Shown: positions 1-48,264, numbered from the stretch's first letter. The stretch is 64,000 bases of DNA from Methylotenera sp. RIFCSPLOWO2_02_FULL_45_14 (GCA_001803395.1 MHBU01000031.1:62001-126000); one strand, 5' to 3'. Made by a program: numbers and translations. Notes: generated from the sequence alone by a model not told the origin.

Positions 1-463
1 AGTATTCTTTGCCAAGTACAACGCCGCCAGGTCCGGCGGAGGGCCAAGTGCCTATGAAGTCTTTATAAGGTGTAAATAATGGGTCAAATGCAGCTAAATC
101 TGGCACGGAAATAATGCGCATATAAAACAGTGCACCAAAGAAGGCGGCAAAAAACGCGATCTCAGAGCAGATGAATACAATCATGCCGATGCGGAAAGAT
201 TGATCTTCCCATTTTTTGTACTGACCAGTCACGCTTTCGGTCACAACCGCACCCAGCCACTTAAAGGTCATGAACAGAATAAGAGCCGCCCCAATATACA
301 TCATCCACTTACCAGGGGTTTGCAGATAAGCTAAATCTTTGTTCTTATCTGTAGCCAGGCTAAAAATAAAACCAGAAGCAAGGCTCAACAACCCCGCTGA
401 AATGACCACTGGGTATAAGCTCCCGTGAGGAACATAATAATGATTACTTGAATGTGTTTCCAT
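1..463 (-). CDS. ctaE: cytochrome c oxidase subunit III, partial (runs off window start)
   Basis: Minus-strand reading from ATG at 463: METHSSNHYYVPHGSLYPVVISAGLLSLASGF...WPSAGPGGVVLGKEY; COX3-like helices, next to COX1/COX2/COX11. Confidence 0.9.
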   Translation of the reverse strand, partial: METHSSNHYYVPHGSLYPVVISAGLLSLASGFIFSLATDKNKDLAYLQTPGKWMMYIGAALILFMTFKWLGAVVTESVTGQYKKWEDQSFRIGMIVFICSEIAFFAAFFGALFYMRIISVPDLAAFDPLFTPYKDFIGTWPSAGPGGVVLGKEY

Positions 464-576
464 GCATTGCTCCTATTGCATTATGTTTAACTAATCTACT
501 TCAACTAATCCGCGGTTGAGCGGCGCTTATTTGTTACACACTCTTTGCATTCTTATAAAAAATATAAGCTGAATCT

Positions 577-1143
577 TTATGGTTTATCTGCACTAAAAAA
601 CGCATACGACAAGGTCATTTCACTGACATCACTGGGCAGCTCTGGACTCACAAAAAACCTTAGAGGCATGACTTTGGTCTCTCCTGGTTGCAGTTCTTGT
701 CGCATAAAACAGAAGCATTCTATTTTTTTAAAATAGATAGAGGCCACTCCTGGTGTAACGCTCGGAACCGCTTGTCCTGCAACTACTTGACTCGTAATGT
801 TTTTAGCCTCAAACAACACTGTTTCTACTTGTCCTGGGTGCAATTTAATGCTGGTTTGTTTAGGATAGAAATTCCATCCTAACCCAGGCATTACACTCGA
901 TGTAAATTGAACCGTAACCCATCTTGATTCATCAACTTTTGTGTTTGAAATCTCAGAAGCAGTAGTTTTTGTTTTACCATTGAGCCCCGTTAAAGTACAC
1001 AGCACATTATATAAAGGCACCAGTGCAATCGCAAAAGCAATGGATCCCGCAACGACCCAGAGCAGCTTAAAGCCTAGCTTCTTGTTCGCCAATTTTCTTT
1101 GCTGATCTGGGCTAGTGCTGTTATTTTCAACTTTTATTTCCAT
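577..1143 (-). CDS. ctaG: cytochrome c oxidase assembly protein CtaG/Cox11
   Basis: ORF with Cox11 features (LVPLYNVLCTLTGLNGKT, KKIECFCFMRQELQPGE); likely start MEIKVENN at 1143. Confidence 0.93.
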   Translation of the reverse strand: MEIKVENNSTSPDQQRKLANKKLGFKLLWVVAGSIAFAIALVPLYNVLCTLTGLNGKTKTTASEISNTKVDESRWVTVQFTSSVMPGLGWNFYPKQTSIKLHPGQVETVLFEAKNITSQVVAGQAVPSVTPGVASIYFKKIECFCFMRQELQPGETKVMPLRFFVSPELPSDVSEMTLSYAFFSADKP

Positions 1144-1241
1144 AACGTAAACATGGAAGCTAGATACCATGCCAATGCAATCGCACCTAAAATTAAAGCA
1201 ACGATTTTATTTTTTTTTGATAATTGTTTTTTTTCCATCAT
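1134..1241 (-). CDS. cytochrome oxidase small assembly protein (35 aa, single TM)
   Basis: Manual minus-strand translation MMEKKQLSKKNKIVALILGAIALAWYLASMFTLWK*; lies between COX1 and COX11, absent from supplied ORF list. Confidence 0.7.
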   Translation of the reverse strand: MMEKKQLSKKNKIVALILGAIALAWYLASMFTLWK

Positions 1242-1302
1242 AGTGTCGAAGGCTCATCTAAATCAACAAGCCTTCATTTTTACCTTAATTTAACTTTTCA
1301 AT

Positions 1303-2895
1303 TTACTTGATAACCGGCTGCTCTGTAAAGCTATGATATGGAGGAGGTGAGGGCAATGTCCACTCTAAGCCTTCAGCACCTTCCCATACCTGATCGGTTG
1401 CTTTTTTACCGCCACGTACACAAGTAATGATGATGTAAACAAATAGTAACTGAGACAAGCCTAAAACAAACGCTGAGATCGATGAAATCATATTAAATTC
1501 AGCAAACTGTAACGCGTAGTCAGGAATACGACGTGGCATGCCAGCAAGGCCTAAGAAGAATTGTGGGATAAAGGTCATATTAAATGAAATCGCAGTCAGC
1601 CAGAAGTGTGTTTTACCTAACTTTTCGCTATACATGTGCCCGGTCATTTTTGGTAACCAGTAGTAAACACCCGCCATAATGCCCATGATGCCACCAGCAA
1701 ACAATGTGTAATGGAAGTGCGCCACTACAAAGTAGCTATTGTGATATTGAGCATCCGCCGCAACGTCAGCTAATACCAGACCTGTTAAACCACCAATACC
1801 AAACAGAATGATCCAGCCTACGGTAAATAGCATGGGTGTTTCAAAACTCATTGAGCCTTTCCACATCGTTTTAATCCAGCAGAAGAATAAAACCGCAAGT
1901 GGTAGAGAAATTGCCATGGTGCTGTACATAAAGTAGAGCAGTGCAGGTACAGGCAGACCTGCAGTAAAGAAGTGATGAGCCCAAACAACTACTGATAAGG
2001 CACCAATACCCCAGAAAGCATAGACCTGTGCTTTGTAGCCGTACATTGGTTTACGAGAGAATGTTTGCAAGATTTGTGGAATAAAACCCCAAACTGGCAA
2101 TAGTAGAATATACACTTCAGGGTGACCAAAGAACCAAAATAAATGTTGGAACATAATGGGGTCGCCACCGCCTGCCGCATCAAAGAAGTGTGTGCCAAAA
2201 TGACGATCTGTGAGCAACATAGTGACCGCACCTGCTAATACTGGAATGGTGGCAATCAATAAGAATGCAGTAATCAACCAGCCCCACGCAAACAATGGCA
2301 TTTTCATTAAAGTCATACCAGGTGCGCGCATATTAAATAGCGTAACAATGATGTTGATAGAACCTAGTACAGAGGATATGCCGAGTAAATGTACCGCAAA
2401 GATTGCAAAGTCAACACCAATGCCGCCTTGTACTGAGAGTGGCGGATAAAACGTCCAGCCAGTCGCCAGGGCGCCATCACCTATGCCAAACAGCGCCAAT
2501 GTGAATGGTAACGTTAATAGAATAGCTGAAGGCGGCAACAACCAGAACCCCCAGTTGTTTAAGCGTGGTAGCGCCATGTCTGGGGCGCCGATTTGCAATG
2601 GAATCATCCAGTTGGCAAAGCCGGTTGCAGCGGGCATTAGCGCAGCAAAAATCATAATTAAAGCATGCACACCGATGAGTTGGTTAAAAAAATCAGGATT
2701 CATCAGTTGCAATCCAGGTTCAAATAACTCGGCACGAATGCCTAAGATCATACAGCCGCCAACCAAAAACATGATGAGCGAAAAGGTCAGGTACATCGTA
2801 CCAATATCTTTATGGTTTGTGGTCGTTAGCCAACGCATAATACCTGTTGGGTGGTCAGCATGTTCGTCATGGTGCGCTACCGTTGTTGTACTCAT
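1303..2895 (-). CDS. ctaD: cytochrome c oxidase subunit I
   Basis: HHDEHADHPTGIMRWLTTTNHKDIGTMYL..., WFFGHPEVYIL, HFHYTLFAGG heme/Cu ligand motifs. Confidence 0.97.
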   Translation of the reverse strand: MSTTTVAHHDEHADHPTGIMRWLTTTNHKDIGTMYLTFSLIMFLVGGCMILGIRAELFEPGLQLMNPDFFNQLIGVHALIMIFAALMPAATGFANWMIPLQIGAPDMALPRLNNWGFWLLPPSAILLTLPFTLALFGIGDGALATGWTFYPPLSVQGGIGVDFAIFAVHLLGISSVLGSINIIVTLFNMRAPGMTLMKMPLFAWGWLITAFLLIATIPVLAGAVTMLLTDRHFGTHFFDAAGGGDPIMFQHLFWFFGHPEVYILLLPVWGFIPQILQTFSRKPMYGYKAQVYAFWGIGALSVVVWAHHFFTAGLPVPALLYFMYSTMAISLPLAVLFFCWIKTMWKGSMSFETPMLFTVGWIILFGIGGLTGLVLADVAADAQYHNSYFVVAHFHYTLFAGGIMGIMAGVYYWLPKMTGHMYSEKLGKTHFWLTAISFNMTFIPQFFLGLAGMPRRIPDYALQFAEFNMISSISAFVLGLSQLLFVYIIITCVRGGKKATDQVWEGAEGLEWTLPSPPPYHSFTEQPVIK

Positions 2896-2920
2896 TACTA
2901 TCTCCTGTGCCTAAACTTGA

Positions 2921-4093
2921 CTATTGACGTGCAGCTTTTACTTGTGAGGGCTGTACAAAATCGCCCACGCTATTGCCTAGTGCATTGCGCTCATAACTGA
3001 TAACAGCGGCGATTTCAGTATCATTTAATAAGGCTTTCCACGCGGGCATTATATTTTTACCGTTGAGTACGCGATCCAAATGGCTATCAGGTAAATATTT
3101 TCCATCTGCGCCGAAAATTGGTGCAGTGGTAATTTTGCCACCAGTCAAGGCTGGGAACGCTGGAGGTAAGCCGGCACCTGTCACTTGGTGACAAACTGCG
3201 CAGTTTTTCTCATAAACTTCTTTACCTTTAGCAACCAGATCTTCTTTTGTCCATTCTTTATCGGCGCCAGCGTCAGCTTTAGCTAACTCATCTTTCTTGG
3301 CAAGTACCCATGCTTTGTATTCTTCTTTAGAGACGGCATTAACAACCACAGGCATGTAGCCATGACCTTTACCACAAAGTTCTTTACACTGCCCGCGATA
3401 CACACCAGGCTTAGTCACCTGCACCCATGTTTCACGGATAAAGCCAGGCACTGCCACGCGTGAAGAACCAAACTGCGGTACCCACCAGTTGTGCAACACA
3501 TCAGTTGCCGTCATTAGCACACGTACTTTTGTATCGACTGGTAATACCAATGGGTTATCTACCTCTAACAGGTAGTTTTGACCTTTTTCTTCTTCGTTAT
3601 GCATTTGCTTATTATTAGTTGTCAAATTACTGACAAATTTAATGCCTTCTGCATCACCGCTCATATATTCGTACTGCCAGCGCCATTGTGAACCAGTGAC
3701 TTTGATCACCATTTCAGAGCCGTTACGTGTGTCTTCCATCATAATGACGCTGTGATAGGCGGGAATGCCCATGATCACGAAGTCAATTAACAGCAGTATG
3801 GCAAATGGAATCAAGGTCCAGAAAATTTCTATTGCGGTTGAGGGGACTTTGTCAGCAACAGGTTTGAAACCCTTGCTTTTACGATGTGCAACAATAGAAT
3901 AAATCATGATGGCAAGCACTACGACAAAAATCGCCATAGTAATCAGCATAAATTTATTATGGACGTGCAGCGTGTCTAAGGCCATTGGTGTTACTGGTTC
4001 AGGAAAGTTCCAGCTGTAATCCGCATGTGCAACCATGCTTACCAAAGCTAAAAGCAAGACGGCACCAATTTTTTTAAGTCCTTGCATTAACAT
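2921..4093 (-). CDS. ctaC: cytochrome c oxidase subunit II with C-terminal cytochrome c domain
   Basis: CuA region GVYRGQCKELCGKGHGYMPV and a C-terminal CAVCH heme c motif. Confidence 0.96.
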   Translation of the reverse strand: MLMQGLKKIGAVLLLALVSMVAHADYSWNFPEPVTPMALDTLHVHNKFMLITMAIFVVVLAIMIYSIVAHRKSKGFKPVADKVPSTAIEIFWTLIPFAILLLIDFVIMGIPAYHSVIMMEDTRNGSEMVIKVTGSQWRWQYEYMSGDAEGIKFVSNLTTNNKQMHNEEEKGQNYLLEVDNPLVLPVDTKVRVLMTATDVLHNWWVPQFGSSRVAVPGFIRETWVQVTKPGVYRGQCKELCGKGHGYMPVVVNAVSKEEYKAWVLAKKDELAKADAGADKEWTKEDLVAKGKEVYEKNCAVCHQVTGAGLPPAFPALTGGKITTAPIFGADGKYLPDSHLDRVLNGKNIMPAWKALLNDTEIAAVISYERNALGNSVGDFVQPSQVKAARQ

Positions 4094-4140
4094 ACACGCT
4101 CCAAATTAATAATTAAAACCAAGTTAAGCATTAGGCCAAA

Positions 4141-4605
4141 TTATTCAAATTTAGCTAACTGTACCTTGAGTTGTTTTGCGAGTTCAATGCGTTGCATATC
4201 ATCCATAAAACGTTTACCAAATTCCACTTGCTTGCCATGTGAGCCTATAAAAAGGCCAACTGTTCCATCTAGCATGTCACGCAACGTTACTTTGACCCAG
4301 TAGCGTTGAAAGGTGATTTTCTCTGTACTTTTGTGAGCATGTTTTTCAATAACAACACTGTCACCTTCTAGTGAAATGCTTTCATAGTCATTGTAATGAA
4401 CATGCACTTGGTAAAACGCAGCAGCAAATGCTAATACTTCAAGCCCAGCAAAAGGTAATACAAACCAAGCACCAATCTGCGACACACCAATGGCAACGAT
4501 CATCACAATCAAGACAATGCTGGTGAAAAGCCATACAAAGCCCTTAGGAGACAGTGAGTTGCTTGGCTTAGCGATAATTTTGTAGCCTAAAGGATAGGAT
4601 GCCAT
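4141..4605 (-). CDS. DUF2244 domain-containing membrane protein
   Basis: Two N-terminal TM helices; length, composition and position beside cox genes fit DUF2244. Confidence 0.7.
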   Translation of the reverse strand: MASYPLGYKIIAKPSNSLSPKGFVWLFTSIVLIVMIVAIGVSQIGAWFVLPFAGLEVLAFAAAFYQVHVHYNDYESISLEGDSVVIEKHAHKSTEKITFQRYWVKVTLRDMLDGTVGLFIGSHGKQVEFGKRFMDDMQRIELAKQLKVQLAKFE

Positions 4606-5015
4606 ACATCACTCGCAATTTAATACGGTTGACCTGCCTATTACTTTTTTCGGTGTGACACTTTGACGCAGGTCAAAAAATAACACAAAGTAATTGCTGA
4701 CTCAAGCAAAAGTTACATTATTGTAACAATTGTGAAATTGATAGTTACATTTAGTAAAAAAAGAGGTGGTGATTTTTGATATTGAATATTGGGCGCCTCT
4801 AATAATTCAACTTTGCAAGCATCCGTTTTGCGGCTTGCCTGCCTTCTCTACGATTAGCCTCAAACTCACCAGACTTTTGGGAGCTTCCATCTACGAGTCG
4901 AGCACAGTCTTTGATTGATGTATACAATAGTATTGCTGGCAAATACCTTATTATTCACTTAAATATTGATGTTGATTGAATAAATGATTCAAAATAACAC
5001 CTTGAAAGGAGCGCT

Positions 5016-6710
5016 ATGCTTGAGAAATTCACCCATTCGCCACGTGTAGCCTATTTCTCCATGGAGATTGCTTTGCGTAATGAGATTCCAACTTACGCAG
5101 GCGGTTTAGGTGTGTTAGCTGGTGACATGGTGCGTTCTGCCGCAGATTTAATGTTGCCCATGGTTGCGATTAGCTTGGTAAGCCGTGCTGGTTACTTTCG
5201 CCAAAAAATTGATGAGCAAGGCCATCAGGTTGAGCTCCCTGATTTTTGGCAGCCTGAACTCTGGGCGAAGCCACTGGATGCCAAAGTGGCCGTCACCATT
5301 GAAGGTCGTCTTGTTTGGATAGGTGCATGGCTGTATTTAGTAGAGGGGCTCAGCGGCGGCAAGCAGCCTGTGCTTCTGCTAGATACTGACCTTAACGAGA
5401 ATAGCCCTGAAGACCGTGAACTCACACACTATTTGTACGGTGGCGATTCGACCTACCGCCTGAAGCAAGAAATTGTGCTTGGCATCGGCGGGGTACGGTT
5501 ACTGCAGGCGCTGGGCTTTACTATTTTTCATTACCATATGAATGAAGGCCACTCTGCCCTGCTAGGTGTGGAACTGTTACACCGTTATGCTTACCCTCTG
5601 GAGGAGTTGAGGGCGGGAGAGCCGCATTACGACATTCCCCGTGTACGTGAGATGTGCAGTTTTACAACCCACACCCCCGTAGAAGCAGGACATGACCGCT
5701 TTGATTATGCGTTAGTGAATCGAGTGTTTGATAATACTTTTGACCTACTCACAATTAGGCATCTGGCTGGGGAAGATTCACTGAATATGACGTGCCTGGC
5801 TTTAAATTTGAGTGAGTATGTGAATGGTGTTGCAAAAAGCCATGCGGATATTTCCAATAAAATGTTCCCCGGCTATCAAGTGCATGCCATTACCAACGGC
5901 GTACATCCTTTGACTTGGGCTGCAGACAGTTTCCGCGAACTTTATAACACGCGTATTCCAGGTTGGCACCATGAGCCTGAACTGCTCATACGCGCAGAGT
6001 GCTGTATCTCTGATGAAGCTATTTGGCAGGCGCACCAGCAAGCAAAAACAGCGCTTATTGAGCAGATATTTGATTTAACTGGGGCTAGGTTCGATCTCAA
6101 TATTCCAATCTTGTCGTTTGCAAGGCGCATGACGGCCTACAAACGCCCGGATATGCTATTTACCGATATGGAGAGATTAAAACGAATTGCCCGGCAATAT
6201 CCATTTCAGATAGTCATGAGTGGTAAAGCACACCCCAGTGACGAAGGCGGCAAAGCACTGATTGCTGAGTTGCATGGCTACGCCAATCAGCTGGCAGGCA
6301 TCATTCCTACGGTGTACTTACCCAATTACAATCTTGATATTGCACATGGCGTGGTGGCTGGCAGTGATGTTTGGCTTAATACGCCGCTTCGCCCGTATGA
6401 GGCTTCTGGCACCAGCGGTATGAAGGCTGCAATCAATGGCGTACCCAGCCTGTCGGTACTTGATGGCTGGTGGATTGAAGGCTGTATTGAAGGTATCACC
6501 GGTTGGGCCATTGGTAACATGATCAGCAGTAATGGCAGTGATGCCATTGCCCTATATGACAAGCTGGAACAAGTGGTGCTGCCACTTTATTATCATCAGG
6601 ATGCAAGCCGCTGGATTAAGGTCATGAAATATGCCATCAGCAAAAATGCATCTTACTTCAACAGCCATCGCATGATGCGCCGCTACTTGATAGAAGCCTA
6701 CACTAGATGA
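5016..6710 (+). CDS. alpha-glucan family phosphorylase
   Basis: MLEKFTHSPRVAYFSMEIALRNEIPTYAGGLGVLAGD...; RPYEASGTSGMKAAINGVPSLSVLDGWW GT35/PLP region; RBS aaggag upstream. Confidence 0.9.
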   Translation: MLEKFTHSPRVAYFSMEIALRNEIPTYAGGLGVLAGDMVRSAADLMLPMVAISLVSRAGYFRQKIDEQGHQVELPDFWQPELWAKPLDAKVAVTIEGRLVWIGAWLYLVEGLSGGKQPVLLLDTDLNENSPEDRELTHYLYGGDSTYRLKQEIVLGIGGVRLLQALGFTIFHYHMNEGHSALLGVELLHRYAYPLEELRAGEPHYDIPRVREMCSFTTHTPVEAGHDRFDYALVNRVFDNTFDLLTIRHLAGEDSLNMTCLALNLSEYVNGVAKSHADISNKMFPGYQVHAITNGVHPLTWAADSFRELYNTRIPGWHHEPELLIRAECCISDEAIWQAHQQAKTALIEQIFDLTGARFDLNIPILSFARRMTAYKRPDMLFTDMERLKRIARQYPFQIVMSGKAHPSDEGGKALIAELHGYANQLAGIIPTVYLPNYNLDIAHGVVAGSDVWLNTPLRPYEASGTSGMKAAINGVPSLSVLDGWWIEGCIEGITGWAIGNMISSNGSDAIALYDKLEQVVLPLYYHQDASRWIKVMKYAISKNASYFNSHRMMRRYLIEAYTR

Positions 6711-6808
6711 GTTAGGCTGAAAGTTTCAAAACTGCTAATCAGCATAGACGGCTGAAACCGAAATTAGACATAAAACTCTTTGCGCGCAGCCATTCAATAT
6801 CGTCGCAC

Positions 6809-7717
6809 TCATGGTGATTGTTTACAGAAGGCGATAAGGCTCGGTAGCGCTACCTCCACTGCGCGTTCGCCCTCCTCAATCGCCTCCTTGGCGCGATGAA
6901 AATCAAGCAAGCCGAGGTGTGTCAGGCGTGGCGCTACAATCACATCGGGCGGCTCGCCCGCCATGCGGCTACGGCTAATGCGTACCTGCATAATATTGAT
7001 ACTGGAGGTTACCACGTCGAGCACGGAGGGAAGCTTAGGCTCATTGTCCCGTTGCGCTGGAATAAATGCGCTAATACTCTCTTGCAGTTTGCGTTTCCAT
7101 TCGCTGACCTCTGCGCGCGGCACTTCAAGCTCATATTCCTCACGCAAGTTACGGCCTATAATGTCAGAACTAAGATCGACCGCAATCACGACATCGGCGC
7201 CCATCGCGCGTGCTAGCGATACCGGTACCGGGTTCACAAGGCCACCGTCCACCAGCAACCGGCCTTCATGTAGCACCGGCGCAAACAACGCGGGAAGTGC
7301 GATGGAGGCACGTACTGCTTCGACGGTCGAACCCTCGCGTAACCAGACCTCCGCCCCGGTATGTAACGCAGTGGCTACAGCTGCATAAGGCATGGCTAAG
7401 TCCTTGATCGGGCGGTCGATGAAATTAGAGCGAAAGAACTCTATTAACCGATCACCCTTGATCAACCCGCCATTCATACTTACATCCAGAAACGAGAACA
7501 CGTTAGTAATGCCCAGCCCGAGTAGCCATTGCTCGAAATGTTCCAGCTCGCCCGCGGCGTAGGCCGCTCCCACTAGTGCGCCAATTGATGTGCCGCACAC
7601 CAAGTGTGGCCGAATGCCGGCTTGTTCCAAGGCCCGAATAACGCCCACATGCGCCCAACCGCGAGCCGCACCGCCGCCTAGCGCGAGTCCCACTCGCGGC
7701 TCGCGAGGTATATTCAT
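6809..7717 (-). CDS. patatin-like phospholipase family protein
   Basis: GGGAARGWAHVGVIRALE, GTSIGALVGA nucleophile motif, DGGLVNPVP; start MNIPREP. Confidence 0.92.
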   Translation of the reverse strand: MNIPREPRVGLALGGGAARGWAHVGVIRALEQAGIRPHLVCGTSIGALVGAAYAAGELEHFEQWLLGLGITNVFSFLDVSMNGGLIKGDRLIEFFRSNFIDRPIKDLAMPYAAVATALHTGAEVWLREGSTVEAVRASIALPALFAPVLHEGRLLVDGGLVNPVPVSLARAMGADVVIAVDLSSDIIGRNLREEYELEVPRAEVSEWKRKLQESISAFIPAQRDNEPKLPSVLDVVTSSINIMQVRISRSRMAGEPPDVIVAPRLTHLGLLDFHRAKEAIEEGERAVEVALPSLIAFCKQSP

Positions 7718-38851: not shown

Positions 38852-39123
38852 TTTTTGTTTAGATCATGACTGTTATTTTATTAACGGTATCCGTATTCAG
38901 TGCGCTGGGCAATGGTAGTGGGAGCATTTACCAATTCCAGCCTGTTTCTCCTGATGGCAATATTTCCAGTTCTAGATAATCCGACAGCACAGCCACCGCA
39001 GTTCTTCCAGATATACTTGCTTGCCAGCATCATAACTACCAGCTATGGGTTTGGTAAAGCCTCAGTTATCGTTCTGCGCTCGACATTTAAGAGTACGCCT
39101 GCCTGAGTAAAAGGCGAAAAACT

Positions 39124-39678
39124 TTAAATAGAAGCACGTATGAGCGTTATAGCTGCATTTTTTGCACGTTTTGCGGCACCTACGCCTGGGCTTAATCTTT
39201 CGACTAAAGCTGCGCCTTCAAAAAGCATGGTGAGTTGCTGCCCAAGCGCGTCAGGATCTTTAGCGCCTGCAGTTGCTGCAATTTTAGATAAGTAGCCTTG
39301 CAACTCTACCGCTAACACCGCTGAATATTGGTTAATTGGATGCGCTGGGTCAGGAAACTCCACAGAGGCGATGTGAAATGGCAGGCCGTGAAACTCTGGT
39401 GTCATTATCCACTGCTCAACGAGTTCGCATAACGATATGAGTATATCAAGCGAATTTTCTTTTTTAGAGATGAGTCTTGAGTTCAACCATTCGTAAAATC
39501 TATCTGACTTATCTCTAAGATAAGCGGTAATCAATAGATTTTTACTCGGGAAATGTTTGTAAAGTGTAGCTTTGGCAATTCCCGCCTCTGCAATGATGGT
39601 ATCAACCCCAGACGCTTGAATGCCTCTGGACTCAAAAAGACTGGTTGCTGTTGCTAGTATTCTTTCATACATCTTCAT
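39124..39678 (-). CDS. TetR/AcrR family transcriptional regulator
   Basis: N-terminal HTH ERILATATSLFESRGIQASGVDTIIAEAGIAKATLYKHFPSKNLL. Confidence 0.93.
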   Translation of the reverse strand: MKMYERILATATSLFESRGIQASGVDTIIAEAGIAKATLYKHFPSKNLLITAYLRDKSDRFYEWLNSRLISKKENSLDILISLCELVEQWIMTPEFHGLPFHIASVEFPDPAHPINQYSAVLAVELQGYLSKIAATAGAKDPDALGQQLTMLFEGAALVERLSPGVGAAKRAKNAAITLIRASI

Positions 39679-39731: not shown

Positions 39732-40493
39732 TCACGGAATTGGGTGCATTAACTCTTGCGGATATAGGCAATTGACATATCCCAGCGCTAGTCTTAGATT
39801 TTCCACATGTTGTACTTCAACTACACCTTTGTTAACAAACATTAAAAAGGCTTGCCTTTGCTCGGGTGGCAACATGGCTGCCTGTGGTAGTTGGCAGGTG
39901 CCATTTTTCATTTTGTTATATGTGAGTAGCAGTGTACTAATGGTAACCGGGTCGGTAGCACCTGCTATTGATTCAATTGGTGAGTGTTGCAAAGTATTGT
40001 TAATGGCGTGCATTTTAGAGTTTGTCATTGTCATCGCACTGAGGCATATAACGAAAGCTGTAGTGACCAGGCCTAATATCAATACCCGTTTCTCTTTTTG
40101 CGAGTTTAAAAAGCTTTGTATTGATTGATTGACTAACTTCCATGCTTGATCAGAACCAGTTTGAGACTGGACTTGTATTGCACCGATTGTCAAAAAAAGA
40201 AGCTGATCAGATATGACCTCAGGGTATTTTACTGAGGCTTTGTTAATTGCAGCATGGATCATTTCTTTTAGTAAATGCACATCTTCGATAGATAAATTCT
40301 GTGGATGTCCATTAGCACTTTTCCTGGAAATTCTTTCAATATTCCAGTGGCTCAGTTGGCTGGAAAGCCCTAATAGGTGAGCATTAGAGGTTTTTTTATA
40401 GGAGTTGATATTTTGCAGAAAACCTAATGAACCCAGATGACTGCTGATCATGTACTTAAGACTGCCAGTTTGAAAACTATGAGCTTGGTTCAA
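39732..40493 (-). CDS. hypothetical membrane protein
   Basis: 253-aa ORF with one central TM; no family recognised; divergent from mxaR. Confidence 0.55.
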   Translation of the reverse strand: MNQAHSFQTGSLKYMISSHLGSLGFLQNINSYKKTSNAHLLGLSSQLSHWNIERISRKSANGHPQNLSIEDVHLLKEMIHAAINKASVKYPEVISDQLLFLTIGAIQVQSQTGSDQAWKLVNQSIQSFLNSQKEKRVLILGLVTTAFVICLSAMTMTNSKMHAINNTLQHSPIESIAGATDPVTISTLLLTYNKMKNGTCQLPQAAMLPPEQRQAFLMFVNKGVVEVQHVENLRLALGYVNCLYPQELMHPIP

Positions 40494-40643
40494 TGTAAAT
40501 TACCCCTAAAAAATTACTTGCCTATTTAAGAACTCTTCAAGTAGACTGTAAATAAGTGAACAGACCTGTCTGGATATTACCTTAAAAATTAGCAAAATGC
40601 AATCGACCGCACCCTTTAAACTTTTATTTTATATAGGATTATT

Positions 40644-41705
40644 ATGCATATTGCAACTACCGATGTTCAGTTAGCTGACTGGCGCAGCCACGCATTGAAG
40701 CTGGAAAACGAAGTGAAAAAGGTGATTGTAGGTCAGGATAAAGCCATTCGACTGATGAATATTGCCATTTTCGCACGTGGCCATGTGTTGCTGGAAGGTG
40801 GCGTTGGCGTTGGCAAGACCACCTTATTGCAATCTATTGCCCGCTGTATCGGCGGTGCGTATGAGCGTATTGAAGGCACGGTGGATTTAATGCCGAACGA
40901 TCTTATTTACCATACGTATTTAGCTGAAGATGGCCGTCCGAAGATTGATGAGGGTCCGCTGTTGCGCGCAGGTGAAAACTTATCAGTCTTCTTCTTTAAT
41001 GAAATCAATCGGGCAAGACCGCAAGTGCATGCGCTGATGTTGCGTGTGATGGCTGAGCGCCATATCAGTGCTTTCAAAAAAGAATACCGTCTGCCGCACA
41101 TGGTGGTATTTGCTGACCGTAACCAGGTCGAAAAAAATGAAACCTTCGAAATTCCATCAGCGGCACGCGATCGCTTTATGATGGAAATTCCAATTGATAT
41201 TCCTGCTGACCGCGAATTAAGAAAATCTTTAATGTTCGATGTTAAGTACCAACATGCAGAAAATCTCACTAAACAAGTGGAATCAAACGTATTGCAGTTT
41301 GATCAACTGAATGACTTTTCTGACATTTTGCAGACTCACATTAAATCGAGCAATGCCCTTGAAGAGTACGCGCTGGACCTATGGGAATCTACCCAAAATC
41401 CAGAGAAATTTGGCATCAAACTAGATAGCGTTGATGTAAATCGCCTGATACACACGGGTGCTAGTCCGCGTGGCATGGGCATGTTGCTCAAAGCAGCGCG
41501 TGTAAATGCGTGGCTGATGAATCGCGACAGTTTGTATCCAGAAGACATTCATGCCGTGTTCCATGAACTGATTGCTCACCGCTTAGTGTTTAACTCTATG
41601 TACGAAAATCGCAGAACGGTATTGGCACGCGAATTAACCACACAAATTCTGAGTACCGTGGCTGTGCCTTCTCAATCAAACTCAGCACAAGCCAAAGCCG
41701 CATGA
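40644..41705 (+). CDS. mxaR: MoxR-family AAA ATPase (MxaR-like)
   Basis: Walker A GGVGVGKTTLLQSIA, FFFNEINRARPQVHALML; first gene of RSACKL-ordered operon. Confidence 0.88.
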   Translation: MHIATTDVQLADWRSHALKLENEVKKVIVGQDKAIRLMNIAIFARGHVLLEGGVGVGKTTLLQSIARCIGGAYERIEGTVDLMPNDLIYHTYLAEDGRPKIDEGPLLRAGENLSVFFFNEINRARPQVHALMLRVMAERHISAFKKEYRLPHMVVFADRNQVEKNETFEIPSAARDRFMMEIPIDIPADRELRKSLMFDVKYQHAENLTKQVESNVLQFDQLNDFSDILQTHIKSSNALEEYALDLWESTQNPEKFGIKLDSVDVNRLIHTGASPRGMGMLLKAARVNAWLMNRDSLYPEDIHAVFHELIAHRLVFNSMYENRRTVLARELTTQILSTVAVPSQSNSAQAKAA

Positions 41706-42574
41706 TTCCGAGCTACGCCAAACCATTCACCTATCAAATACCCTGGAAGTCCAGCAGTCTCCATTTTGGTGGGCATAGAGGTACGCAACGCGGCTTAGGT
41801 TTTGAATACAGGGGCAACGTGCCGCTGATTGACTACCCTGACGCTAGGCGTATGGACTTGCGCCAAACGTTGCGCGACCCTTACGAGCAAATACAGGTCA
41901 AGCTGTTCAATCAGGACAACACCACACCCATATTTGCGGTATGCGATCTATCAAGCTCCATGCAGTTTAAGGGGCAGGGTAAGGGGTCGCCCAGAAAGCT
42001 GGATCAAGTCAAGGAGATCGCTGCTTCAATCGCTTATTCAGCCTCTGAAACAGGGGATGTGTTTAGCTTTATTGGCTACAACCAGCAGGTAATAGAAGAA
42101 TTAACCCTGCCTTTAAGCCATCACTTACATCAGTCATTCGAGATCATTGAACAACTTAGTGATTACAGAAAAATGCGCGTTGGCTCTGAAGGAATATTGG
42201 AAGTACCACAATATTTAAGCCAGCACAAAGGCTTGATATTCTGGATTTCAGACTTCCACATGCCAATTACCTTGATAGTGCAGGCCTTCAATGCGATGTC
42301 CGTGCATCAAGTGGTGCCCGTTGTGCTGTGGGATGACCAAGAGTACAAAAAGCTGCCTAGGTTTGGTTTTGGCAACATGATAGATCCTGAAACTGGCTTG
42401 AACAGAACGATATTCTTTCGGGATTCAGTCCGAGCACAGTTTGAAGAAGCTTTTGCGGCCAGGAAACAGGCGCTTGAAAACGAGTTTGCTCGCTTTGACA
42501 GCCAAGCGATCTATCTAAGCGGTAAGTTTGATCCTGAAGATATGTCGCATTATTTTGAACAGTTTATAAGTTAG
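41702..42574 (+). CDS. mxaS: DUF58 protein (MxaS-like)
   Basis: GLGFEYRGNVPLIDYPDARRMDLRQTLRDPYEQ, DLSSSM; 4-bp overlap with mxaR. Confidence 0.85.
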   Translation: MIPSYAKPFTYQIPWKSSSLHFGGHRGTQRGLGFEYRGNVPLIDYPDARRMDLRQTLRDPYEQIQVKLFNQDNTTPIFAVCDLSSSMQFKGQGKGSPRKLDQVKEIAASIAYSASETGDVFSFIGYNQQVIEELTLPLSHHLHQSFEIIEQLSDYRKMRVGSEGILEVPQYLSQHKGLIFWISDFHMPITLIVQAFNAMSVHQVVPVVLWDDQEYKKLPRFGFGNMIDPETGLNRTIFFRDSVRAQFEEAFAARKQALENEFARFDSQAIYLSGKFDPEDMSHYFEQFIS

Positions 42575-42617
42575 TAAAAACTTAAAGAGATCACTTAAAA
42601 AGACAACTGAACAAACT

Positions 42618-43538
42618 ATGAAAAACTTAATCATTAAATTAATCGCATTGGTGAGCCTATTTGGCAGCTTGGCAATTGATATGCCTAGCGCTATGGCGCA
42701 AGAATCTGATGCTAATATTTTAAATATCATCAATCCAACTGTCAGCAATGGCATCCAAATCGGTGATGTGCTGAATCGCACCATCGTCATTGAAGTCAAT
42801 ACACCTTATCAAATATCCAAGACTGCTTTACCGATGAAAGGTGAAGTGAGAAACGGCATTGAGCTGACAGATATCACCGTTAATTCATCGGATAAAACTA
42901 AAAAGAATATTGTCTCGATAGCGCTCCGTTATCAAGTGTTTGCCAGCGCGGCTAAGCCTGTCGTCATGCAATTGCCAAAAGAGGAGTTTACACTCACCGG
43001 TGGCGATAAAGCCTTATCGATTAAAGTACCGGCTTGGAATTTCTGGTTCTCGCCGTTAGTTGCGGAGGGCATTACTAATGCCAAAGAAAATCTTCAGCCG
43101 CAATACAAGCCAACACTGATCGATGTTAGTGCGCATCACGCCAGGTTTTGGGTGTCACTGGCTCTGTTTATCACAGGCTTACTTGGTCTTGTTTATATCA
43201 ATGCGGATAAGCGCTGGTTACCCTTTATGAATGGCGCATTTGCCCAAGCACATCGTAGTCTCAAGAAGCTACCTAGCAATCAAACGAGTGAGAAGAAAGC
43301 CTTGGCTCACATGCATCATGCATTCAATAACCTTCATGGTAAAAACCTGTTTGCCAATGATGTTGAACAATTTTTAGCCGCACATCCTAAATTCTCAATA
43401 TTAAAAACTGACATTACAACCTTTTTTGCGCAATCAAATGCGTCTTTATTTGGTAATAAGCATAAAGAGAGCGAGCAGTTTATGAGCGGTCTCATTGCAT
43501 TAAGCAAACGCTTAAGAGATTGCGAGCGAGGTGTATAA
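42618..43538 (+). CDS. mxaA: MxaA-like methanol dehydrogenase accessory protein
   Basis: Signal peptide, single TM, position between mxaS and mxaC. Confidence 0.75.
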   Translation: MKNLIIKLIALVSLFGSLAIDMPSAMAQESDANILNIINPTVSNGIQIGDVLNRTIVIEVNTPYQISKTALPMKGEVRNGIELTDITVNSSDKTKKNIVSIALRYQVFASAAKPVVMQLPKEEFTLTGGDKALSIKVPAWNFWFSPLVAEGITNAKENLQPQYKPTLIDVSAHHARFWVSLALFITGLLGLVYINADKRWLPFMNGAFAQAHRSLKKLPSNQTSEKKALAHMHHAFNNLHGKNLFANDVEQFLAAHPKFSILKTDITTFFAQSNASLFGNKHKESEQFMSGLIALSKRLRDCERGV

Positions 43539-44510
43539 ATGACACTCTTACAGCCATGGGCGCTATTATTGTTGCCATTAGCCGCCGCGCCATTTTTGTT
43601 TAAAAGCTACCAAGGTCAAATGTACTCCTGGCTGGAAATCATGCCGGCAGACCGGGTTTCCGACATTGCCAACATGGTGGTCAAAGCAATTACGGCCATT
43701 ATTCTGGCGAGCATCGTTCTGGCACTGGCTTCACCGCAAGGCGCCAACAAAAAAGTGCAAAAAGTAGGCAAAGGCGCACAAACGGTTTTAGTGATTGATC
43801 GTAGCGTGAGTATGGATCACCCATTCGCGGGCGATTCATCGAGCGGACGTGCTGCGGAAATTAAATCGGCCGCCGCGCGAAGACTTATTACCAAGTTCAT
43901 CGACTCGCGTCCTGACGATATGATGGGTGTGGTTGGGTTTACCAACTCGGCCCTATATGGCATGAAAATCACCACCAATCGTGATGCGATTCATTCGGCA
44001 ATCAATGCTGCCACGGGTGCCGCACTGAATCAAACTAACATCGGTGCTGGCGTTACTGAGGGAGCTTCTCTTTTTGATCAGATCCAAAGCTCAGGCTCAC
44101 GGGCCATTATTTTGTTGTCGGATGGTGCTGGCAAGCTTAGCCCGCATGTTAAATGGATGGTTTCTAAACAATTAGCAAGTAAAAAATTGAATCTTTACTG
44201 GATAGTATTGCGAGAACCTGACGACATCAGTATTTTTTCTAAAGAAATCTATCCAGTAGATGGCGTACCAGATGCTATTGCGCTGCATCAGTATTTCAAG
44301 TCACTTAAAATCAAGTACAAGGCTTTTGAGGCAGACAATCCGACTACTTTGCAGACTGCACTGCAATTTATTGATTCCAAAGAAAAGAATATTATTCAAT
44401 ACGCTGTGAACATCCCTGGTCACGATTATTCCAAGGATTTTATTATTCTGGCGCTGGTGTTGAGTCTGGTTATATTATGCATCAAGAATTTAAGGGTACA
44501 TTCATGGTAA
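43539..44510 (+). CDS. mxaC: vWA-domain protein (MxaC-like)
   Basis: MIDAS VLVIDRSVSMDHPF; TM at both ends; operon position. Confidence 0.82.
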   Translation: MTLLQPWALLLLPLAAAPFLFKSYQGQMYSWLEIMPADRVSDIANMVVKAITAIILASIVLALASPQGANKKVQKVGKGAQTVLVIDRSVSMDHPFAGDSSSGRAAEIKSAAARRLITKFIDSRPDDMMGVVGFTNSALYGMKITTNRDAIHSAINAATGAALNQTNIGAGVTEGASLFDQIQSSGSRAIILLSDGAGKLSPHVKWMVSKQLASKKLNLYWIVLREPDDISIFSKEIYPVDGVPDAIALHQYFKSLKIKYKAFEADNPTTLQTALQFIDSKEKNIIQYAVNIPGHDYSKDFIILALVLSLVILCIKNLRVHSW

Positions 44511-45040
44511 ATCGCGTAAATAGAAGCAATATTATCTTTGGATTGTTACTGTTGTCGGGATTGACTGGCATGCTGTATGAGGCGTATCAGAGCAATAAAA
44601 TAGACAAAGTTAACCATGCAATTTCTGTTGGGCAGCTGATTGAAGATGATGCTTATCCGCACCTGCAGAAGTTCGCAGCTGCCTACGACCAAGGCAATAA
44701 AAAAGATTATAAGCATGCGGTACAGACGTACGGACAATTGTTGGAGACAACCCCTACATTAAGTGAACAAGCAAAAATACAGTTCAACATTGCGAACAAC
44801 CTGTTTGTTTTTGGCTTGATTCGCAGAATCAATGATGATGGTACATTGAATGATGAGGCGCGACATGCTTATGCTCAAGCCAAAATGGCGTATGAGCAAT
44901 CGTTAAGGTTGGCTCCTCTGGAACGCACAGCAAAATTCAATTTGAGCTTGTTATATTCTGTGATGTCCAACAAAATGAAGCCAGCGCCTAAAGAGCAATC
45001 TACAATGGAATTGAGTAATTTACCGATTGGCTTGCCATGA
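44504..45040 (+). CDS. mxaK: MxaK-like accessory protein
   Basis: N-terminal TM and TPR-like C-terminus; operon position between two vWA genes. Confidence 0.75.
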   Translation: MVNRVNRSNIIFGLLLLSGLTGMLYEAYQSNKIDKVNHAISVGQLIEDDAYPHLQKFAAAYDQGNKKDYKHAVQTYGQLLETTPTLSEQAKIQFNIANNLFVFGLIRRINDDGTLNDEARHAYAQAKMAYEQSLRLAPLERTAKFNLSLLYSVMSNKMKPAPKEQSTMELSNLPIGLP

Positions 45041-46044
45041 GACATATTCTTGCGTTTCTCAAAGAGAACCATGAAACGGCGCTCTACTTAGCCGCTGCCA
45101 TATTGCTGCTGTTAGCACTCATTAAGCCTGAGATTCAATTGAAGCAGGTTGTGCAGAACTATTTACTTGTGGCAGATGTGTCACAAAGCATGAATGCTGA
45201 AGATGTGAAACTAAACAATCAAAATGTCAGCCGATTAGCCTACACCCGGCATCTGATGAAAAAAGTCGTTGAAACCTCGCCCTGCGGTACTTACATTAGT
45301 ATTGGTATTTTTGCTTCTGATAATGTTGCATTACTAATTACGCCTTTAGAAGTTTGTGCAAATTATGATGTGATTACCGATTCAATCGCACATCTGGAAT
45401 GGCGTATGGCCTGGAAAGGTAATAGCCGCTTGAGTTTTGGCGTTAGAGCCGCCGCAAATACCTTTGATTCACTCAATGTGCCAGCCCAGATGCTATTTTT
45501 TACCGATGGAGATGAAGCGCCTAGGGTTAATGTAACCATCAAGCAGGATCTTAGTGGAATTCAAATAGGTAAGAATTTTGTTTTTGTTGGCGTTGGTGGA
45601 CATACAAAGGTAGGCGTACCGAGATTGAACTCAGCTAATAAACGGGTGGGGTTTTGGCCGATTAGCGGTAATAACAATGCGGGCGCAGTTAGTGTAACTT
45701 ACGCAGATCCCAGTGTAGATGAACCAGATCCATCAGTGGCTTCTGCCGAGTATGATCGATTTTTATCGCAGCTTGAGGGTGAGTATTTGAAAACACTTGC
45801 GGGTGAAATAAAGGCGAAATATATTGAAGGACAGGACACCCCGGCCTTTTATGAGTTTGTACAACAACAAAAGCCTGCTGCGAGTTTTGTGACAGCATAT
45901 TCAATACGCTGGTTGTATTTATTGTTAGCAGCACTTTTAATTCTGGCTACTTATGTTCCACATATCTTGTTTAGGCTAATCTCAACACCAATGCTGCTAT
46001 CTAAAAAGTTAAAAAACGGTAATAAAACAGCCCTTGAAAAATGA
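45037..46044 (+). CDS. mxaL: vWA-domain protein (MxaL-like)
   Basis: MIDAS LLVADVSQSMNAEDV, FFTDGDEAP; 4-bp overlap with mxaK. Confidence 0.82.
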   Translation: MRHILAFLKENHETALYLAAAILLLLALIKPEIQLKQVVQNYLLVADVSQSMNAEDVKLNNQNVSRLAYTRHLMKKVVETSPCGTYISIGIFASDNVALLITPLEVCANYDVITDSIAHLEWRMAWKGNSRLSFGVRAAANTFDSLNVPAQMLFFTDGDEAPRVNVTIKQDLSGIQIGKNFVFVGVGGHTKVGVPRLNSANKRVGFWPISGNNNAGAVSVTYADPSVDEPDPSVASAEYDRFLSQLEGEYLKTLAGEIKAKYIEGQDTPAFYEFVQQQKPAASFVTAYSIRWLYLLLAALLILATYVPHILFRLISTPMLLSKKLKNGNKTALEK

Positions 46045-46131: not shown

Positions 46132-48264
46132 ATGGGAAAACCAACTGACACTTCGATTAAAACATTTCACGGCGGCTGTCCGCATGATTGTCCAGACACA
46201 TGTAGCATGGTCTATACCGTTAAGGATGAAAAGCTTATTTCAGTGACAGGTAACAAAGAGCACCCGATGACGCGCGGTGGCCTATGTGTCAAATTAAAAG
46301 ATTACGAAAAGCGCCATTATCACCCAGACCGTTTGCTCTACCCACTAAAAAGAACAGGCCCCAAAGGCAGTAAACAGTTTAAAAGAATCAGTTGGGATGA
46401 GGCGCTGGATGAAATTACCGCTAAATGGAAAGCCATTATTGCAGAACATGGGCCACGTGCAATTATGCCCAATAGCTATCTTGGCAACCAAGGTTTAGTG
46501 CATGGATTAAACGGTGGTGATGCCTTTTTTAATCGTATGGGCGCTACTGTAACTGAGCGCACATTCTGTGGTGAAGGTTCATGTACCGCGTGGTTACTCA
46601 CCGTCGGCCCTACTGCTGGCGTCGATCCAGAAAGCTTCATCCATTCTAAATATATTGTCATCTGGGCATGTAATTCTGTCAGTACTAATCTGCATCATTG
46701 GCATATTGTTAAAGAGGCGCAAAAAAAAGGTACGAAAGTGGTCGTGATTGATTCGTATGCTTCAAAAACCGCGAAAGAAGCGGATTGGCATATCGCACCA
46801 AAACCAGGCACAGATGGGGCATTAGCCATGGCAATGATCCATACCATCATTAAAGAAGGTTTAGTGGATCAAGATTATGTCGATAATCACACGGTTGGCT
46901 ATGCCGATTTGGCAGAACGTGCCAAAGATAGAACCCCAGAATGGGCTGAGAAAATTACAGGCATTCCCGCAGATGATATACGTAAGTTTGCGAGAGAGTA
47001 TGCAACAACGCCGCCAGCAGCGATTCGCCTTGGCGTCGCGCTAGAAAGAACCTATGGCGGTGGCCAAGCAATACGTGCGGTGGCATGCCTACCTGCGCTA
47101 ATTGGTGCTTGGCGCCATGTGGGTGGTGGTGCACTGCAGTTTCCGGTATGGGAACATCCTTATAAATTTGACGTGATTTGCCGCCCGGATTTAATTCCTG
47201 AAGGTACGCCTGTGGTGAATAACCTGCAACTCGGCAGGGTGCTTACAGGTGAAATCAAGCTGGATGTGCCGATTAAATCCATGATGTGCTGGAACACCAA
47301 CCCCGTCACGCAAGCGCCAGAAACTGATAAGATTATTGAAGGACTTAAACGCGAAGATTTGTTTATGGTGTCCGCCGAACATTTTATTTCGGATACCGCT
47401 GCATATGCCGATATTGTGTTGCCTGCATCCATGGGTGCTGAAATGGAAGACATGATTTTGTCATGGGGACATCTCTATCTGACCTATAACGCCAAATGCA
47501 TCGAATCCCCCGGTGAAGCCATTCCAAATAATGAGATTTTTAGACGCTTGGCAAAACGCATGGGTTTTGAAGAAGATAATTTCAAATGGTCAGATAGTGA
47601 ATGCTTGCAACACTATGTTGACTGGGATTCTCCGACTTGTGAAGGTATTGATTTAAACTACATGCGCGAGCATGGCTTTGCCCGATTAAAAGCCTTTGGC
47701 TCTAAAGATGTTCGTGCACGCCACAAAGAAGGCAATTTCCCTACGCCATCAGGCAAGTGCCAGTTTTCTGTTCATGGCGCAACTAACTTTGTCGCTGGGC
47801 CATTCCGTCAGATGTATGACGGCTTTCAACCTGGCGAAACATTAGATAGCTTACCTGACTATGTGGCATCAAAAGAGACGGCTGAAGCCAACCCGGCACT
47901 CGCAGCAAGATTTCCACTCAGTATTATTTCACCCAAAAGCCATGGTTTTTTAAACTCTTGCTATGCCAATGTGGAACAAAAAATCAAAGGCCAAGGAGAT
48001 CAATTCGTTTTAATCAATTTTGCTGATGCAAGTGCACGTGGTATTCAAGAGGGAAATAAAGTACGTGTATTTAACGACAGAGGCACATTTGAGGCAGAAG
48101 CAAAAGTCACTAAAGATGTAAATCCTGGCATTGTGGTCGCAACATTAGGATATTGGAGACAGCTCAATAACGGCACGGTGAACTGTATTAGTTCTGCGGA
48201 GTTTGTGGATATGGGGCATGCACCGACATTCTCAGATAACCTGGTGCAGGTGGAGCTGGGGTAA
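46132..48264 (+). CDS. molybdopterin-dependent oxidoreductase (DMSO reductase superfamily)
   Basis: 4Fe-4S motif GGCPHDCPDTCSMVYTV...TRGGLCVK; HPDRLLYPLKRTGPKG; C-terminal molydopterin-dinucleotide-binding domain. Confidence 0.93.
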   Translation: MGKPTDTSIKTFHGGCPHDCPDTCSMVYTVKDEKLISVTGNKEHPMTRGGLCVKLKDYEKRHYHPDRLLYPLKRTGPKGSKQFKRISWDEALDEITAKWKAIIAEHGPRAIMPNSYLGNQGLVHGLNGGDAFFNRMGATVTERTFCGEGSCTAWLLTVGPTAGVDPESFIHSKYIVIWACNSVSTNLHHWHIVKEAQKKGTKVVVIDSYASKTAKEADWHIAPKPGTDGALAMAMIHTIIKEGLVDQDYVDNHTVGYADLAERAKDRTPEWAEKITGIPADDIRKFAREYATTPPAAIRLGVALERTYGGGQAIRAVACLPALIGAWRHVGGGALQFPVWEHPYKFDVICRPDLIPEGTPVVNNLQLGRVLTGEIKLDVPIKSMMCWNTNPVTQAPETDKIIEGLKREDLFMVSAEHFISDTAAYADIVLPASMGAEMEDMILSWGHLYLTYNAKCIESPGEAIPNNEIFRRLAKRMGFEEDNFKWSDSECLQHYVDWDSPTCEGIDLNYMREHGFARLKAFGSKDVRARHKEGNFPTPSGKCQFSVHGATNFVAGPFRQMYDGFQPGETLDSLPDYVASKETAEANPALAARFPLSIISPKSHGFLNSCYANVEQKIKGQGDQFVLINFADASARGIQEGNKVRVFNDRGTFEAEAKVTKDVNPGIVVATLGYWRQLNNGTVNCISSAEFVDMGHAPTFSDNLVQVELG

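Follow-up and report, generated by a model that had tools for sequence, protein, structure and literature searches.

A TetR-linked mxaRSACKL operon, a candidate chaperone system for XoxF-type dehydrogenases, in a Methylotenera genome without mxaF and mxaI

Introduction

Systems that couple a MoxR-type AAA+ ATPase to proteins with a von Willebrand factor A (vWA) domain serve many clients, and the pairs of the NorQ-NorD or RavA-ViaA type have a single vWA partner each. XoxF, the lanthanide-type methanol dehydrogenase, is often presented as self-sufficient with regard to the mxa calcium-insertion genes. In Paracoccus methylovorus those accessory genes stand in one operon with the genes of the calcium enzyme, in the order mxaFJGIRSACKLD. 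The mxaRSACKL products drop with lanthanides in Methylorubrum, Methylosinus and Methylocella, which speaks against a XoxF client, but the copies concerned are those of the mxaF operon.

Copies outside that operon are also on record. According to PMC4109929, MxaRSACKL together with XoxFJG belongs to the core of the Methylophilaceae, and the strains JLW8 and 301 have two mxaRSACKL copies each and no mxaFI. On that source orphan clusters are the rule in this family and already published, so that the oddity implied for such a cluster by an earlier note on the present DNA falls away.

Here we describe one of these clusters, found in a window of 64,000 nucleotides (the whole stretch of DNA that was analysed) from Methylotenera sp. 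RIFCSPLOWO2_02_FULL_45_14. On balance we incline to the reading that the operon, under the control of TetR, encodes a set of AAA+/vWA chaperones for dehydrogenases of the XoxF type, with the partner enzyme inferred. What is added to the published picture is the separation of the clusters into clades, a conserved TetR operator and a wider association with XoxF-only genomes.

The mxaRSACKL Genes of the Window

The earlier note had read positions 40644-46044 as a six-gene mxaRSACKL set, and this stands: six intact open reading frames lie there on the plus strand, each where it had been placed, and Pfam matches and Paracoccus orthology agree with the assignment. The first gene, mxaR (40644-41705), encodes a MoxR-family AAA+ ATPase with the Walker A motif GGVGVGKT and a Pfam AAA_3 match (2.9e-26) plus lid, and mxaS (41702-42574) encodes a DUF58 protein (Pfam, 2.6e-19) with a MIDAS-like DLSSS motif and an orthologue in Paracoccus MxaS (~1.5e-21). 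The product of mxaA (42618-43538), which gave no match in the Pfam search and matches Paracoccus MxaA at 8e-20, is membrane-anchored, with hydrophobic stretches at 1-23 and 175-197 and an exported N-terminal half. Two membrane vWA proteins, MxaC (43539-44510; Pfam VWA_2 1.5e-10; MIDAS DRSVS) and MxaL (45037-46044; Pfam VWA_2 4.8e-10; MIDAS DVSQS), are encoded on either side of mxaK (44477-45040), whose small, N-terminally anchored product is TPR-like (weak Pfam TPR match). The coupling by ATGA overlaps that had been described holds at the R/S and K/L junctions only; mxaS and mxaA are separated by a 43-bp gap, mxaA and mxaC abut, and mxaC and mxaK overlap by 34 bp. Immediately 3′ of mxaL is a molybdopterin oxidoreductase-like gene (46132-48264, plus strand), a linkage to type A (see below) that is not conserved among the relatives' loci.

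The genes look functional. Compared with locus L022 by the NG86 method, mxaR, mxaS, mxaC, mxaK and mxaL have a dN of 0.035-0.08 at a dS of 1.2-1.7, and mxaA has a dN of 0.20; the dN/dS of ~0.02-0.05 for mxaR, mxaS, mxaC and mxaL is approximate, dS being near saturation. On these estimates the cluster is under purifying selection and the constraint is clear, which, together with the conserved operator described below, bears out the earlier view that function has been retained.

Across the Methylophilaceae, mxaS occurs in 118/120 genomes and MxaI in 38/120. The window cluster is of type A, a class defined by an MxaS identity >50% and counted by hand, which is present in ~52/120 genomes of the family and in 17 of the 18 sampled from its own genus (6 with MxaI, 11 without); the loci nearest to it come from Methylotenera/Methylophilaceae MAGs. 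Type B, a second class, is near-universal in the family and present even in streamlined genomes of 1.2-1.4 Mb.

The TetR-hypX Pair and Its Operator

The hypothetical gene and the TetR gene that had been noticed upstream are both there, on the minus strand and divergent from mxaR. The former, hypX (39732-40493), encodes a 253-aa single-pass membrane protein (transmembrane segment 135-157) with a conserved C-terminal domain that contains two Cys; its sequence had no match in Pfam, NCBIfam or the PDB, and its AlphaFold model was weak (pLDDT 64), with no PDB structure match below E 0.001. The latter, tetR (39124-39678), has a Pfam TetR_N match (6e-13), is co-conserved with hypX and the operator, and encodes a predicted repressor.

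A predicted sigma-70 promoter (40518-40547, plus strand; TTGCCT-N18-TAGACT), conserved in aligned homologous intergenic regions, is followed by the palindrome GAACAGACCTGTCTG (40558-40572, plus strand), a predicted TetR site with an inverted CAGAC-CT-GTCTG core. This operator begins 10 nt after the -10 box TAGACT, and bound TetR would therefore cover the start site. Most type A clusters have as divergent neighbour either TetR-hypX or a MocR-type GntR/aminotransferase protein, and hypX is linked to type A in 24 loci. Between hypX and mxaR, GAACAGACCTGTCT occurs in 24/24 TetR-hypX loci (window included) and in 0/21 MocR-linked loci; the operator 14-mer is likewise in all 24 of the former and missing from every one of the latter. 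Operator sites number one per genome in 8/9 genomes with a match and, in the window's own genus, one per genome apart from a single extra site in G038. A divergent TetR gene and a conserved palindrome at the promoter together point to regulation by TetR.

Several loci depart from this arrangement. L038 has only distant relatives of TetR and hypX and no operator site; in L031 the pair has been relocated behind mxaL, and an operator with two mismatches still stands ahead of mxaR; L039 and L032 have a second site, ahead of a small membrane-protein gene that adjoins the TetR module. In relatives a small gene of this kind belongs to the module, and the window retains a 5′-truncated remnant of a related gene (38888-39094, plus strand; 75% identity, 69/144 aa of the L116 protein; upstream stops). 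At L116 itself (G116:C9, ~45.7-48.7 kb) a TetR-hypX operator stands ahead of a gene for a small membrane protein and of an mxaL without its usual partners, beside a full type A cluster; this looks like a second copy that has been deleted in part.

The search for operator sites found no extension of the TetR regulon to a dehydrogenase gene. Judged by its travelling with the type A cluster and by the conserved operator that marks it, the TetR-hypX pair is not incidental. The regulation of the operon appears to be unreported, in that a search of the open-access literature found no account of the TetR-hypX-operator module.

The Host Genome and Its Dehydrogenases

The host, a freshwater, methanol-using member of the Methylophilaceae, has a genome of 2.13 Mb that is 98.2% complete. 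The earlier note was right that mxaFJGI is not upstream, for these genes are absent nearby, and the genome search that it had proposed returned neither mxaF nor mxaI: PF02315, the MxaI family, had 0 matches genome-wide, and the sole MDH-type large subunit in the host is one XoxF4. Its motif DEWDYD includes the extra Ln-coordinating Asp, where MxaF of M. mobilis 13 has DEWDFA, and a host with such a XoxF and no MxaFI suits a cluster that serves XoxF.

The xoxF4 cluster lies on a different contig from the window mxaRSACKL, and its layout agrees with the xoxFJGG plus NADH-dehydrogenase arrangement published in PMC4109929. Two more PQQ alcohol dehydrogenases (PQQ-ADHs) are encoded, one at L016:9821-11524 and the other apparently split over the end of contig C24 (L019:5986-6666) and the start of C11 (L018:3-896) of the host, G000, with the active-site motif HDVWGYD rather than HDxWDxD. 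A second mxaRSACKL cluster, diverged and of type B (MxaR 63%, MxaS 43%), is found on contig C30, flanked by fabA- and ygfZ-like genes. At a distance of ~7.5 kb from type B, L020:1806-2186 encodes an exported protein whose two EF-hands lack the proline typical of lanmodulin. The 169-kb contig of the xoxF4 cluster also carries a seemingly complete Calvin-cycle operon (L016, G000 C7:88000-107000, positions 228-6852: rbcL, rbcS, cbbX, fbp, prk, phosphatase, fba), which adjoins a PQQ alcohol dehydrogenase, a cytochrome c and a LysR gene; that Methylotenera from lake water (LW2) has RuBisCO is already published (PMC11978286).

The Partner Enzyme

In relatives, type A lies directly downstream of a Ln-type xoxF4 on the same strand at L041, L056 and L104 (L041 and L104, whose contigs are both 300,031 bases long, are possibly one record), and at L041 and L104 a divergent MocR gene stands ahead of xoxF4. 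Beyond the family, 14/14 other Burkholderiales genomes with such clusters (cluster-bearing genomes alone counted) have a XoxF-like enzyme and no MxaI. The neighbour of the cluster is xoxF in L119 and L121 and xoxJ in L126 and L129; in L122 it is a partial xoxF, accompanied by xoxJ, where the contig ends. At L126 and L129, which belong to small-genome Burkholderiales (family f17), the conserved order is mxaRSACKL, cytochrome c, xoxJ, a YVTN-type propeller protein and an mxaD-like gene, and neither xoxF nor mxaF is near the cluster. Because of the linkage to xoxF in relatives and the co-occurrence in the Burkholderiales, gene context favours XoxF as the client, and among the options that the earlier note had listed the maturation of XoxF is the best supported.

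The association has its exceptions. XoxF4 is present and no mxaRSACKL of any type was detected in G113 (L108; 98% complete) and G082 (87%), and G004, G049 and G070 have a cluster and no XoxF match at threshold; assembly gaps may be the cause. Family-wide, type A tracks MxaI (35/38 MxaI-positive vs 17/82 MxaI-negative genomes, by hand count), which counts against a XoxF client, but the correlation is confounded by streamlined genomes that lack both, and 11/12 of the MxaI-negative genomes of the window's own genus retain type A. It could also be that type B alone serves XoxF4.

On a reading that takes up this last point, type A matures another periplasmic PQQ dehydrogenase, namely one of the two further PQQ-ADHs of the host, and leaves XoxF4 to type B. 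We regard this as unlikely, although the host has two mxaRSACKL clusters for one XoxF4 and two such enzymes, dehydrogenases tend toward a paralogous cluster of their own (C with mxaF, D with distant xoxF), and operator-bearing type A never adjoins xoxF among the loci seen; at some of those loci type A does adjoin xoxF4, and at none of them these ADHs.

It is less likely still that the operon works for an unrelated metalloenzyme of the periplasm, or in envelope stress, and owes its mxa name to descent alone. The many clients of MoxR/vWA systems (PMC3893208) would allow it, as would the orphan mxaRSACKL of the Caballeronia Lep1P3 plasmid, which adjoins metal-efflux genes with no dehydrogenase near, and several Burkholderiales copies without a PQQ enzyme within ~6-8 kb. 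The XoxF-like enzyme in every one of the 14 Burkholderiales genomes tested nevertheless argues otherwise, as do the several clusters that adjoin xox genes and a core status in the family that parallels that of XoxF. The Caballeronia sp. Lep1P3 plasmid in question, p3, is mobilizable; its cluster (L162) sits beside heavy-metal efflux genes and integrases, and no annotated PQQ dehydrogenase lies within 9 kb.

Origin and Identity of the Operon

In a tree, the MxaR+MxaC sequences of 77 clusters fall into four clades (support A 0.95, B 0.98, C 1.0, D 1.0, and A+B 1.0). All members of clade C adjoin mxaFJGI, those of clade D lie beside, or share an island with, a distant xoxF-like gene, and the window cluster belongs to type A, in the A+B clade. 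Because the tree places A+B apart from the mxaFJGI-linked clade C, the window cluster is not a broken mxaF operon. The accessory genes here are not downstream of mxaFJGI, and we do not file them under the mxaF operon because the genome has no mxaF/mxaI and types A and B are never in an mxaFJGI operon at the loci examined.

That the operon is a relic of mxaFJGIRSACKL, on its way out after the loss of mxaFJGI, had been offered as an option and is now very improbable. The host genome does lack mxaFJGI, a gene remnant lies nearby at 38888-39094, and such a history has been proposed for Sphaerotilus (PMC13300288); the window cluster nonetheless belongs to another clade than the mxaFJGI-linked copies, M. 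mobilis 13 and other genomes contain both kinds of cluster, all reading frames are intact, and the operator is kept across genera. We reject the relic on the tree and the purifying selection.

The gene order (MoxR, DUF58, MxaA, vWA, MxaK, vWA) is that of the mxaRSACKL module, and the proteins resemble characterised Mxa proteins more closely than those of Bat-type and further MoxR operons, MxaK weakly and by profile. MxaR scores 326-387 bits at 48-55% identity with its counterparts in mxa-bearing Methylobacterium, Paracoccus, Methylocystis, Azospirillum and Caballeronia, and, among the matches listed, other MoxR proteins score <=145 bits at 30-34% (plasmid-borne records in both cases). The matches to Paracoccus methylovorus are one-to-one (R 5e-126, S ~1e-21, A 8e-20, C 2e-39, L 3e-38), with a weak match of MxaK, by profile only, at 1.3e-9; for MxaC the match to Paracoccus MxaC (2e-39) compares with one of 1e-10 to Leptospira BatA. 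A Bat-type operon (BatABCDE) misread as mxa is hardly credible and is rejected, since the shared MoxR, DUF58, vWA and TPR parts and a weak NCBIfam BatA match (42 bits vs a 380-bit cut-off) are outweighed by the gap in MxaR scores, by MxaA and MxaL matching Paracoccus and not Leptospira Bat, and by a different order of genes. Neither of the two outcomes that the earlier note had set against its own reading, mxaFJGI elsewhere in the genome or best matches of the Bat type, was found.

A Possible Mode of Action

The cluster in the window is best explained as a functional type A paralogue among the mxaRSACKL accessory operons. Cytoplasmic MxaR, the AAA+ ATPase, and MxaS, the DUF58 protein, would drive, across the membrane, MxaC and MxaL with MxaA and MxaK, and the whole would act as a chaperone complex for a PQQ methanol dehydrogenase of the periplasm, either by supplying its metal or by activating it; in a host without MxaFI the client would most likely be the lanthanide-type XoxF4. 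Transcription would proceed from the conserved promoter. The palindrome, to which the divergent TetR is predicted to bind, spans the start region of this promoter, and TetR may thereby exert a ligand-controlled repression of the operon as well as autoregulation of hypX-tetR. A more speculative extension, possible but doubtful, is that two XoxF-maturation operons, A and B, evolved in the Methylophilaceae apart from the calcium-enzyme operon, and that type A is made switchable by a TetR sensor and a hypX membrane partner responding to lanthanide, calcium or substrate state.

If this extension holds, the lanthanide enzymes of this lineage would depend on an AAA+/vWA machine for their activation, at odds with the picture of XoxF maturing without the mxa calcium-insertion genes. 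A whole family of lanthanide-dependent methylotrophs retains mxaRSACKL operons, one or two of them, in the absence of the calcium enzyme, and the clade split, with a named operator and regulator, makes the need of XoxF for such a machine testable in laboratory strains.

Comparison with Known Systems

The orphan copies of M. mobilis JLW8 and M. versatilis 301 are alike in being extra clusters whose host has XoxF but no mxaFI; the part of PMC4109929 that was consulted mentions, for these copies, neither a split into clades nor a TetR-hypX-operator module. The mxaFJGIRSACKLD operons of Paracoccus methylovorus and Methylotenera mobilis 13 share all six genes with the window cluster, every one of them orthologous (MxaK by profile), and agree with it in gene order, whereas the window cluster has no mxaFJGI upstream and no mxaD downstream, falls in a separate clade (A+B vs C), and has a promoter of its own, with a TetR operator and the TetR-hypX pair. 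Leptospira BatABCDE has a similar list of parts (MoxR, DUF58, two vWA proteins and TPR) but differs in that its two vWA genes are adjacent and followed by TPR and then BatD, and MxaA and MxaL are unmatched there. NorQ-NorD and RavA-ViaA also have an AAA+ MoxR protein and vWA partners that mature a metalloenzyme, and among PDB entries NorQ matches MxaR weakly; the window operon, by contrast, has three MIDAS proteins together with MxaA and MxaK, and most of these proteins are anchored in the membrane.
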